From an uncultured Bacteroidales bacterium (GTDB lineage: Bacteria > Bacteroidota > Bacteroidia > Bacteroidales > UBA932): DNA of 64,000 bases. A program made the position numbers and the translations under genes. Position 1 is the first letter of the stretch, and each line of letters begins with the position of its first letter. Below, in pieces: positions 1,402 through 5,092 of the stretch. The DNA is taken from positions 23,326 to 87,325 of the forward strand of contig CAJOKD010000018.1 in assembly GCA_905235085.1 (NCBI GenBank), read 5' to 3'. The notes under the pieces are model-generated. The model was not told the DNA's origin. It was given only the letters and a program-made list of their open reading frames with translations, and did not search any database.

Positions 1402-3804
1402 ATGAGGAGAGTATTATTGACAGTCGTGGCGGCGGTGTGCTGCCTGGGTGCCTTCGGACAGGAGAGCGCAAAGGTGACCAAGGCGAACTATGCCCTGGCG
1501 GAAAGGTTCTCTGCCAAGAAGGTGAACCAGATGGTGTTCTCGACCAGGGTGATGCCGAACTGGTTCCGTGACGGGGACAGGTTCTGGTATGAGTGGAAGA
1601 CTCCGCAAGGGACCAAGTATTACATAGTGGATCCGGCCAAGGGCTCAAAGACCGAGATCTTCGACATGGAGAAGCTGGCGATGCAGGTCACCGAGCAGGT
1701 CCGCTATCCATTTGATGCCCAGCATATTCCTATAAGGAACCTTAAGCTCAAGGAAGACAGGTATTTCCATTTCGACATAGTGTCCGGATTGAACAAAGAC
1801 AAGGACACGACGTATTTCAGGTATGATATCGTGACCAGGCAGCTGGACACCGTCGGAAAGGAGAAGAAGAAATATCCGATGTGGGCCAGTGTTTCCCCTG
1901 ACGGGAAGGTTGGAATATTCGCGAAAGGTTCGAACCTGTGGATAATGGACTCCACCAACCTTCGGAAGGCCGCCGTCAACGAGAAGGACACCACCCTCGT
2001 GGAATATAAGCTGACGACCGACGGCATCCGTCAGTTCGGCTACGGCTACGGCAACTACACCGGCGACACCGAGAAGGACAGCACCAAACGCCACAATCCG
2101 GGTCACATCATCTGGTCCCCGGACTCAAGGCACTTCGCCACCATGAAGTGGGACATGCGCAAGCTGAGCGAGCTCTGGGTAATCAATTCCGTGAAAGGAA
2201 AGCGTCCGGAACTGGAGACCTACAAGTACCAGATGCCGGGCGAAGCCGGTCCCAAGGGATATCTCTTCGTATTCACCCTGGATGGCTTGAAGGCCACTTC
2301 CCAGGAAGTGAGGAGCGAGGCTTTCAAGGACCAGGACGTCAATTTCCTGAACGCCAGGCATGAAGCGAAGGACAATTACCTTGACTACAGGACGAGCAAA
2401 TGGCTGGGCGACAACAGCGGATTCTACCTGGTCAGGCAGAGCCGCGACCTCAAGAGGCTGGACCTTTGCTGGGTGGCGGTCGGCGCCGATTCAACGAAGA
2501 CCATAATCTCTGAGAGGGAAAGGACTTATATAGAATACCGCAATCCTTATCTTGTCAAGGGCGGAAAGCAGCTTGTCTGGTGGTCCGAGCGCAACGGATG
2601 GGCCAACCTGTACCTGTATGACAGCGACGGCAACCTCCAGAGGGCCCTTACAGACGGAGCTTTCCACGTGGAAGACGTGCTGGGAGTCAACGAGAAGGAG
2701 GGATATGTGCTCCTGAGCGCCTGCGGAGTCCTGAAGGGCGAGAATCCTTACCAGATGCATACCTTCCGGGTCCCGCTTGCGGGCGGAAGCCTTTCGCACC
2801 TGGATATGGATGATATGGATGTCCTCTCTACGGCCAGCGACGATGCCAAGTACTTCGTGGCCAATTATTCCAGGGTGGACTGCGGACCGGCCGTCGCGCT
2901 TTACAATGCATCCGGAAAGAAGGTTCTGGACCTCGGAACAGCTGACCTCAGCCTGCTGTTAGAGGCCGGATACAAGTTCCCCGAGAGGTTCAAGGTCAAG
3001 GCCGCCGACGGGGTGACAGACCTGTACGGAGCGATGTACAAGCCTTATGACTTCGATTCCACAAAGGTCTATCCTATCTGCGACTATGTATATCCTGGTC
3101 CTCAGGTGGAGGCCAACAACATCTCCTGGAGCAAGGGTTTCACCAGGACCGACAGGCTCGCCCAGCTCGGTATCATAGTGATCACCGTGGGCAACCGCGG
3201 AGGCCACCCGAACCGCTCCAAGTGGTATCACAACTACGGTTACGGCAACCTGCGTGACTATGGTCTGGAGGACCAGAAATACGCCATCCAGCAGCTCGGG
3301 GCCAGGTATCCGTTCATCGACCTTGAGAGAGTGGGAATCCACGGGCATTCAGGCGGCGGCTTTATGAGCACCGCAGCCATCCTGAAGTATCCTGACTTTT
3401 TCAAGGCGGCGGTGTCCTGCGCCGGCAACCACGACAACAGCATCTACAACCGCTGGTGGAGCGAGCAGCATCACGGAATCCTGGAGAAGGTCGACAAGGG
3501 TGATACTACGTTCGTATATTCAATCTCCACCAACCAGGAGCTTGCGAAGAACCTGAAGGGGCACCTTATGCTCGTCCACGGGGATATCGACAACAATGTG
3601 CATCCTGCCAACACCATACGCGTTGTGAATGCGCTTATCAGGGCCAACAAGCGCTTCGATATGCTTATCCTCCCCGGACAGCGCCACGGCTTCGGGGATA
3701 TGAACGAATACTTCTTCTGGAGAATGGCCGACTACTATTCCGAGTGGCTCATCGGTGACACCGAACGGTCCAGAGTGGATATAGTCCAGCTGAACAACGA
3801 CTGA
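1402..3804 (+). CDS. S9 family peptidase (DPP IV-like prolyl oligopeptidase)
   Basis: Signal peptide; beta-propeller-like N-terminus; catalytic GIHGHSGGGFMS and C-terminal LPGQRHGF. Confidence 0.9.
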   Translation: MRRVLLTVVAAVCCLGAFGQESAKVTKANYALAERFSAKKVNQMVFSTRVMPNWFRDGDRFWYEWKTPQGTKYYIVDPAKGSKTEIFDMEKLAMQVTEQVRYPFDAQHIPIRNLKLKEDRYFHFDIVSGLNKDKDTTYFRYDIVTRQLDTVGKEKKKYPMWASVSPDGKVGIFAKGSNLWIMDSTNLRKAAVNEKDTTLVEYKLTTDGIRQFGYGYGNYTGDTEKDSTKRHNPGHIIWSPDSRHFATMKWDMRKLSELWVINSVKGKRPELETYKYQMPGEAGPKGYLFVFTLDGLKATSQEVRSEAFKDQDVNFLNARHEAKDNYLDYRTSKWLGDNSGFYLVRQSRDLKRLDLCWVAVGADSTKTIISERERTYIEYRNPYLVKGGKQLVWWSERNGWANLYLYDSDGNLQRALTDGAFHVEDVLGVNEKEGYVLLSACGVLKGENPYQMHTFRVPLAGGSLSHLDMDDMDVLSTASDDAKYFVANYSRVDCGPAVALYNASGKKVLDLGTADLSLLLEAGYKFPERFKVKAADGVTDLYGAMYKPYDFDSTKVYPICDYVYPGPQVEANNISWSKGFTRTDRLAQLGIIVITVGNRGGHPNRSKWYHNYGYGNLRDYGLEDQKYAIQQLGARYPFIDLERVGIHGHSGGGFMSTAAILKYPDFFKAAVSCAGNHDNSIYNRWWSEQHHGILEKVDKGDTTFVYSISTNQELAKNLKGHLMLVHGDIDNNVHPANTIRVVNALIRANKRFDMLILPGQRHGFGDMNEYFFWRMADYYSEWLIGDTERSRVDIVQLNND

Positions 3805-3831
3805 CGGCTCGTCATCCACGGCTGTTCACTA

Positions 3832-3963
3832 CGTCATCCCCGGCTTGACCGGGGATCTGTTTCTGTCTCGCGTCATCCCCGGCTTGACCGGGGATCTGTT
3901 TCTGTCTCGCGTCATCCCCGGCTGACCGGGGATCTGGGATGCCCGAACAAGTCGGGCATGACG
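3832..3963. repeat. Composite palindromic repeat cluster, left of GIY-YIG gene
   Basis: Two identical 39-bp tandem units CGTCATCCCCGGCTTGACCGGGGATCTGTTTCTGTCTCG (3832-3870, 3871-3909), then CGTCATCCCCGGCTGACCGGGGATCTGGGATGCCCGAACAAGTCGGGCATGACG (3910-3963). Confidence 0.95.
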
Positions 3964-4010
3964 TATGGGTCGGACATAACAATTTATATTGAATCAACAT
4001 CTAAAGAACT

Positions 4011-4379
4011 ATGGAAAGGAAAGGATACATCTATTTTATGACGAATAAGAATAATAACGTCTTATACGTCGGTGTTACTAACAGTCTTGTCAGAAGAATG
4101 GCCGAACATCATGAAGGAAGAGGCTCATCGTTTACCAAAAAATACAATTGTTATAAGTTGGTATATTTTGAGCGGTTCCAGGATATTGAGCAGGCCATCG
4201 CTCGCGAAAAGCAATTAAAGCATTTCAAACGAGAGTGGAAAAACAATTTGGTACAAGGCGTTAATCCGAATTGGATTAATTTGGCGAAAAGCATAATATC
4301 TGATCCGGAGGGGATGCCCGAACAGGTCGGGCATGACGGACTAGTCGGGCATGACAGCCTAATCGAGCAAGACGATTAA
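4011..4379 (+). CDS. GIY-YIG (URI domain) nuclease family protein
   Basis: GYIYFMTNKNNNVLYVGVTNSLVRRMAEHHEG ... FTKKYNCYKLVYFERFQDIEQAIAREKQLKHFKREWK, typical single-domain GIY-YIG; C-terminus encoded by repeat sequence. Confidence 0.93.
   Translation: MERKGYIYFMTNKNNNVLYVGVTNSLVRRMAEHHEGRGSSFTKKYNCYKLVYFERFQDIEQAIAREKQLKHFKREWKNNLVQGVNPNWINLAKSIISDPEGMPEQVGHDGLVGHDSLIEQDD
4311..4374. repeat. Palindromic repeat and 18-bp tandem units inside the 3' end of the GIY-YIG CDS
   Basis: GGGATGCCCGAACAGGTCGGGCATGACG + GACTAGTCGGGCATGACA + degenerate GCCTAATCGAGCAAGACG, translating as GMPEQVGHD-GLVGHD-SLIEQD. Confidence 0.9.
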
Positions 4380-4400
4380 TACATTGCTATGTGTTCGCTA

Positions 4401-4491
4401 CGTCATCCCCGGCTTGACCGGGGATCTGGGATGCCCGAACAGGTCGGGCATGACGGACTAGTCGGGCATGACGGACTAGTCGGGCATGACG
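4401..4491. repeat. Composite palindromic repeat plus 18-bp tandem units, right of GIY-YIG gene
   Basis: CGTCATCCCCGGCTTGACCGGGGATCTGGGATGCCCGAACAGGTCGGGCATGACG (4401-4455) followed by two exact GACTAGTCGGGCATGACG units (4456-4473, 4474-4491); same orientation as the left copy. Confidence 0.95.
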
Positions 4492-4507: not shown

Positions 4508-5092
4508 CTAGCGCCCGTAGAGCTGGAGTTCGATAACTCTGCGCTTGAGGGCGCTTCCGTATTCATATTCACCGACATCTATCGAATCAAGTAGGTAGAG
4601 GTCGGTGCCCTTGAATATGGTGCCTTCGGCTACTGTCCTGATCTGCAGGATCTTGTCGATGGAATCCTTAGGGACGATCAGATGGCAAGGGATGATGTAG
4701 GCGACCATGTTGCAGGCCACGGCGTGAGCTACTGCGCGTACTCCGCGAGGATTGTCGCAGATCTGGGCAAGCTGGCTGTAGCTCATCAGCTTGATTCCCT
4801 CCTCAGGCAGGATAGGCGTGCCATCCTCCCGGTGGGTCAGATGGTATAGATTCTTCCAGACATTGACCTGGAATGGAGTGCCGGAAATGTAAAGGTCCTC
4901 CCACTTGGTCTTGAGGGACAGGTCGGAGAGTTCCTTCATCGAAATCTTGCTGACAGTGATTTCCGAAGTGGCGGAAACAGGTTGTGATTGCACCATCTCG
5001 GTGATTTTGCCCAGGTGCCGGAAGTCCGCGCAGACCGACGCAATCTTGCCATCGATGCGCGTCACCACCCATTTGTTATCATTCCTTTTCAT
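4508..5092 (-). CDS. Methylated-DNA--protein-cysteine methyltransferase (MGMT/Ada C-terminal-like)
   Basis: GTPFQVNVWKNLYHL, SYSQLAQICDNPRGVRAVAHAVACNMVAYIIPCHLIVP; active-site Cys context PCHL instead of PCHR. Confidence 0.85.
   Translation of the reverse strand: MKRNDNKWVVTRIDGKIASVCADFRHLGKITEMVQSQPVSATSEITVSKISMKELSDLSLKTKWEDLYISGTPFQVNVWKNLYHLTHREDGTPILPEEGIKLMSYSQLAQICDNPRGVRAVAHAVACNMVAYIIPCHLIVPKDSIDKILQIRTVAEGTIFKGTDLYLLDSIDVGEYEYGSALKRRVIELQLYGR

Follow-up and report, generated by a model that had tools for sequence, protein, structure and literature searches.

The closest described counterpart of the locus studied here is presumably the Ssn protein of Neisseria. Ssn belongs to the GIY-YIG superfamily and reportedly cuts single-stranded DNA at specific sites. 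A 2025 study in Nat Commun reportedly described its NTS repeats and how it affects transformation, along with thousands of homologues that have sequences of their own. If this account holds, the association of such nucleases with repeats is as such already known, and our locus is a further member of the nuclease-repeat pairs.

Two other systems are relevant for comparison. The UPF0213/YhbQ proteins (E. coli YhbQ; PDB 1zg2, 1ywl) are related small GIY-YIG proteins. RAYT/REPIN systems consist of an enzyme gene flanked by short palindromes, with head-to-head palindrome pairs as non-autonomous units; their enzyme is a Y1 HUH transposase and their tag is GTAG.

The CGTC REP superfamily spans several bacterial phyla, Bacteroidetes being among the listed carriers, and its CGTC-1 repeats are the dRS3 repeats of Neisseria (Di Nocera et al. 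2013, PMC3733652). CGTC REPs have a CGTC or TGTC tag, a stem of 8-9 bp that starts with AT, a loop of 4-5 bases, and a short unpaired tail, which is CCA in most members; they form head-to-head dimers. The 2013 survey found no transposase gene flanked by these repeats, and a dedicated enzyme seemed to be absent (PMC3733652).

Here we analyze a GIY-YIG gene surrounded by CGTC-tagged palindromes in a Bacteroidota genome. Below, the window means the whole 64-kb stretch of DNA that was analyzed. We believe, with reasonable though not full confidence, that the locus is a mobile unit of ~0.7 kb placed between convergent host genes. It would comprise an Ssn-like GIY-YIG gene and its own cognate CGTC repeats, the enzyme would cut the repeats, and cutting and repair would drive copying of the unit.

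Layout of the locus

The GIY-YIG nuclease gene (4011-4379, plus strand, 122 codons) lies between an S9-type peptidase gene on its left (1402-3804, plus strand) and a convergent MGMT-type gene on its right (4508-5092, minus strand). Both host genes are intact and neither is interrupted; thus the gene is not an intein and there is no interrupted host gene. Its single-domain product matches PF01541 (E 1.3e-17), its profile matches are to GIY-YIG and T5orf172 only, and by this criterion it can be assigned to the GIY-YIG superfamily. The gene is indeed AT-richer than its surroundings, as first described (37.7% GC vs 52.4% in the window). Its conserved core comprises codons 1-100: in alignments, the region shared with homologues stops near residue 100, and the final 22 codons are translated from repeat sequence. 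The host genome has only one other GIY-YIG gene, in a 617-codon frame that was also matched by a UvrC family search.

A homologue of the window protein is present in two records of Neisseria gonorrhoeae (tblastn E 2e-14; 36/90 identities); in the record examined, it lies amid 16 dRS3 repeats. The two gonococcal records, NZ_CP119140.1 and NZ_CP119142.1, are of chromosome size (2.17 Mb) and are filed as plasmids. We take this dRS3-linked protein to be Ssn, as the meningococcal form is called. The alignment places the window protein in the family of the neisserial one, whose gene is also surrounded by its cognate repeat. Both are single-domain GIY-YIG proteins encoded amid CGTC-tagged palindromes, but the repeat stem is CCCCGG in the window and CCCGC in Neisseria, and the window genome, which belongs to Bacteroidota, has few exact copies of its repeat. 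The issue also differs: it is the mobility of the unit here and, reportedly, transformation in Neisseria. YhbQ is only 19/76 identical to the window protein, and no repeat was found near E. coli yhbQ. Residues L18, Y19, G21, T23, R29, H33, E66, and K70 are invariant among the window protein, the Neisseria protein, and YhbQ.

The hairpin detector revealed seven CGTC-tagged hairpins (REPs) around the gene, at ~3832-4455. Elsewhere in the 64 kb it gave at most one match, imperfect and chance-like; a cluster of this kind is far beyond chance. Hairpins 1 (3832-3857), 2 (3871-3896), 3 (3910-3934, lacking one base), and 6 (4401-4426) are of the CGTCATCCCCGGCTTGACCGGGGATC type and lie on the plus strand. 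Hairpins 4 (3938-3963), 5 (4313-4338, which overlaps the gene at its 3' end), and 7 (4430-4455) are of the GATGCCCGAACARGTCGGGCATGACG type and lie on the minus strand. Hairpins 3 and 4 are the left and right arms of the left head-to-head dimer (3910-3963); hairpins 6 and 7 are those of the right dimer (4401-4455).

A preliminary description of this DNA had reported a two-hairpin unit on both sides of the gene in the same orientation. The direct copies were located, starting from 3823 and 4392; the duplication includes the 9 bases that precede the tag (TGTTCRCTA). The right-hand unit indeed has the near-perfect terminal inverted repeat reported for it. The two-hairpin unit stands as a head-to-head dimer, but on the left it is preceded by two more plus-strand hairpins, so that the left block has three instead of one.

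Half-repeats complete the layout. A degenerate one, CGTCATCCACGGCTGTTCACTA, forms the left edge of the inserted block (3810-3831, plus strand), where the S9 and MGMT genes abut in congeners. Two 18-bp half-units occupy 4339-4374 on the minus strand; the first (GACTAGTCGGGCATGACR) is 4339-4356 and the second is degenerate. Two tandem GACTAGTCGGGCATGACR half-units follow the right dimer (4456-4491, minus strand). Tandem half-repeat arrays were likewise seen in homologous locus L003 (8010-8110) and upstream in L075 and L072. The half-repeats of L003 and the window are ~18 bp each and consist of the tag and the first arm only, as if copying had restarted at the loop.

The supposition that the repeats form a family agrees with a search of the whole 2.35-Mb genome, where the wider repeat pattern occurs 49 times and its reversed control 0 times. 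The exact 26-mer has only five copies in the genome, three of them at this locus. Judging by the CGTC tag, the 8-bp stem beginning with AT, the loop of 5, and the head-to-head dimers, the window repeats can be attributed to the CGTC REP superfamily. They differ from it in tails, which are CTG on plus arms and CCC (CCC/CCA) on minus arms instead of a uniform CCA; as CCA is given for most members only, this difference does not exclude membership. They are also clustered in the window, and no dedicated enzyme was reported for the superfamily (PMC3733652). The proposed analogy with RAYT/REPIN holds for the layout but not for membership: the protein has no Y1/HUH match among its profile matches, and the tag is CGTC, not GTAG.

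Association of the gene with CGTC repeats

Homologues were sampled as the best 80 loci from a collection of 85,000 species genomes; these are best matches rather than a random draw, and some come from related species. According to record titles, the best 80 originate from Bacteroidota, Pseudomonadota, Bacillota, Spirochaetota, Fibrobacterota, Cyanobacteriota, candidate phyla, and others. In 64 of these best 80, the relaxed hairpin detector found a repeat within 300 bp of the gene. The same detector was positive for 96/156 adjacent 300-bp flanks (62%) and for 92/3675 distant bins (2.5%) of the same loci (p ~1e-95, odds ratio ~62). This detector was designed after misses were noticed, and therefore we also present a stricter one (6 or more perfect stem pairs following GTC), which was positive for 44/156 adjacent 300-bp flanks (28%) and for ~1% of bins farther out. 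An initial scan, which required either 7-8 perfect stem pairs or a stem of 9 with no more than one mismatch, was discarded: many homologues seemed repeat-free because it overlooked common interrupted-stem repeats such as TGTCATTCTGAGCGAAGCGAAGAATC.

Repeats were found at similar places in further samples, namely 23/30 loci in the phylum sample, 15/22 in the genus sample (degenerate copies included), and 74/91 among paralogues (within 300 bp). A de novo count free of any hairpin assumption gave TGTCAT, GTCATC, and their overlaps as the hexamers most enriched near the gene. The nearest upstream repeat is on the plus strand in 18/25 cases and the nearest downstream repeat is on the minus strand in 18/24; thus the tags point outward. 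The detector found no repeat in 16 of the 80 loci, several of which have CGTC hairpins with other stem bases. In the alphaproteobacterial homologues L230, L233, L105, and L119, the stems of CGTC hairpins begin with AC or GC instead of AT. Since such stems exist, the association rates obtained with GTCAT represent minimum values.

The pairing of the gene with the repeats is real and general, extending well beyond this genome. That an ordinary gene lies beside repeats by coincidence has a negligible probability: it is refuted by the enrichment over bins of the same loci and by UvrC gene flanks of the same phylum, where a repeat was found in 0/39. Among phage records there were two weak homologues only. 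One homologue, on a plasmid of Planktothrix agardhii (L235), is situated between the gene of an MmeI-type restriction enzyme and the DISARM gene drmA.

Gene and repeat variants also correspond to each other. Within genomes, the similarity of repeats grows with protein identity (91 gene copies from multi-copy genomes; rho 0.52, permutation p ~0.003). Between genomes, mean repeat similarity climbs from 0.44 to 0.83 with protein identity. Recent duplication of whole units accounts for part of this trend. Between genomes, repeat similarity is already higher at 60-75% protein identity, which suggests that the pairing is maintained for longer.

Congeners with the gene have a median of 17 repeats vs 1 in congeners without it (p 1.4e-4; some genomes are incomplete). 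At least 10 repeats are present in 30/128 (23%) congeners without a detected gene, incomplete genomes included; G054, G064, G442, and G003 are repeat-rich examples. Thus the repeats can be kept without the gene in cis. Such genomes would agree with a tyrosine (RAYT/IS200-like) or other transposase that moves the repeats in trans, with the GIY-YIG gene as a passenger, which was raised as one possibility for CGTC REPs (PMC3733652). Yet that survey reports no CGTC-flanked transposase gene, and the flanked gene is the GIY-YIG one. We therefore consider the action of a transposase very improbable.

Occupied sites, empty sites, and unit boundaries

The two congeners G017 and G033 have an S9 gene 86% identical to that of the window. 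In both, it abuts the MGMT gene with neither the GIY-YIG gene nor repeats between them, and thus ~0.7 kb has been inserted in the window locus. Empty S9-MGMT junctions, for which the preliminary description suggested a comparison of orthologous sites, do exist. A target-site duplication, ACGGCT on both sides of the locus, was considered but is not claimed, because the congeners are only 86% identical.

Presence and absence alternate at another orthologous site, in Sphingobium plasmids: it is occupied in four aligned plasmids, has one short gene-less CGTC palindrome in two, and has neither in one. A clean empty site was not identified from the plasmid flanks of Rhizobium, and the empty sites found in Shinella are too diverged to place exact ends.

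A block of gene and repeats is common to paralogues of the same genome, and the homology tends to stop at GTC/GAC tags. Clear cases are L222/L223, L207, L195/L199, L190/L192, and L200/L201. In an automatic test, the end of homology was no farther than 2 nt from a tag in each of the paralogous copies for 8/42 ends vs 1.15 expected (p 1.6e-5, with pairs that overlap in part and are not independent where they share a gene copy). The other 34/42 ends were not cleanly at tags. From these sequences, the gene-plus-repeat block looks mobile.

Several repeat-gene-repeat copies are clustered on one contig in L225 (G185), L206 (G172), and L220 (G317). In one genome (G258), two gene copies with 93% identity (L203 and L205) are within integron attC-like sequence (TAACAAGCGTTTC ... 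CGCCGGGTCGTTA), which makes gene cassettes a possible vehicle of the unit.

Direct duplications flank the gene in 48/79 loci. Some exceed 200 bp and many take in non-repeat DNA, which argues for recombination or break repair rather than clean transposition. Flank duplications are compatible with break repair, homing, and transposition alike. In two Winogradskyella loci (L090 and L104), a duplication of ~90 bp on both sides of the gene apparently includes the start of the neighboring gene.

These duplications, together with the direct copies of one repeat pair to the left and right of the window gene and the single gene-less palindrome at the orthologous site of two Sphingobium plasmids, are what would be expected if the gene were a homing parasite. 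Such a gene would enter existing repeats by cutting and repair copying, and the repeats would spread independently of it. But the empty sites of G017 and G033 are free of any repeat, one Sphingobium site has neither gene nor palindrome, and cognate pairing within genomes fits joint movement better. We regard homing as unlikely, though worth keeping in mind.

Another explanation is that the enzyme is a regulator. Its targets would be its repeats in single-stranded DNA, either incoming or transient, and by cutting them it would tune DNA uptake or recombination in their vicinity. The repeats would spread in some other way, and the gene would remain linked to them as a useful one. This would match the role reported for Ssn and the NTS repeats in Neisseria, the position of the gonococcal homologue amid dRS3 (i.e., CGTC-1) repeats, and the persistence of repeats in congeners without a detected gene. 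However, regulation leaves unexplained the tag-bounded paralogous blocks at different loci and the presence or absence of the whole block. It also has to face several genomes with 10-20 diverged gene copies in each. Thus it too appears rather improbable.

Proposed mechanism and its meaning

We return to the mobile unit that we favor for the window locus. In its own repeat variant, the enzyme would recognize the GTC tag and the hairpin, probably on single-stranded DNA, and would cut there. We infer single-strand site-specific cutting by the window-type enzyme from analogy with what is reported for the Neisseria homologue. After cutting and repair, the tag-to-tag block of gene and repeats may be copied, lost, or rearranged. 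Bare head-to-head repeat pairs would undergo the same events and would represent non-autonomous derivatives. It is a well-motivated proposal that the cut would drive copying of the unit and that the enzyme itself would move it.

The preliminary description ascribed to the GIY-YIG enzyme the mobilization or maintenance of the repeats. The association, the covariation of protein and repeat, the insertion, and the tag-bounded units agree with this claim; the persistence of repeats in genomes without a detected gene limits it with respect to maintenance in cis, and catalysis of the movement is what the enzyme may provide. For the superfamily as a whole we are more hesitant. GIY-YIG nucleases could tentatively be seen as the dedicated mobilizing enzymes of CGTC REPs, with units that move from tag to tag and bare head-to-head pairs as non-autonomous elements; this is quite possible but open to serious doubt.

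One enzyme family is now tied across phyla to repeats that were said to lack a dedicated enzyme in the 2013 survey (PMC3733652). The enzyme and the repeat variant match each other, and the units are bounded by repeat tags. The spread of the repeats thereby becomes a concrete assay with one small protein and one short DNA. If GIY-YIG nucleases do mobilize CGTC REPs, they would form the basis of a transposon-like system.
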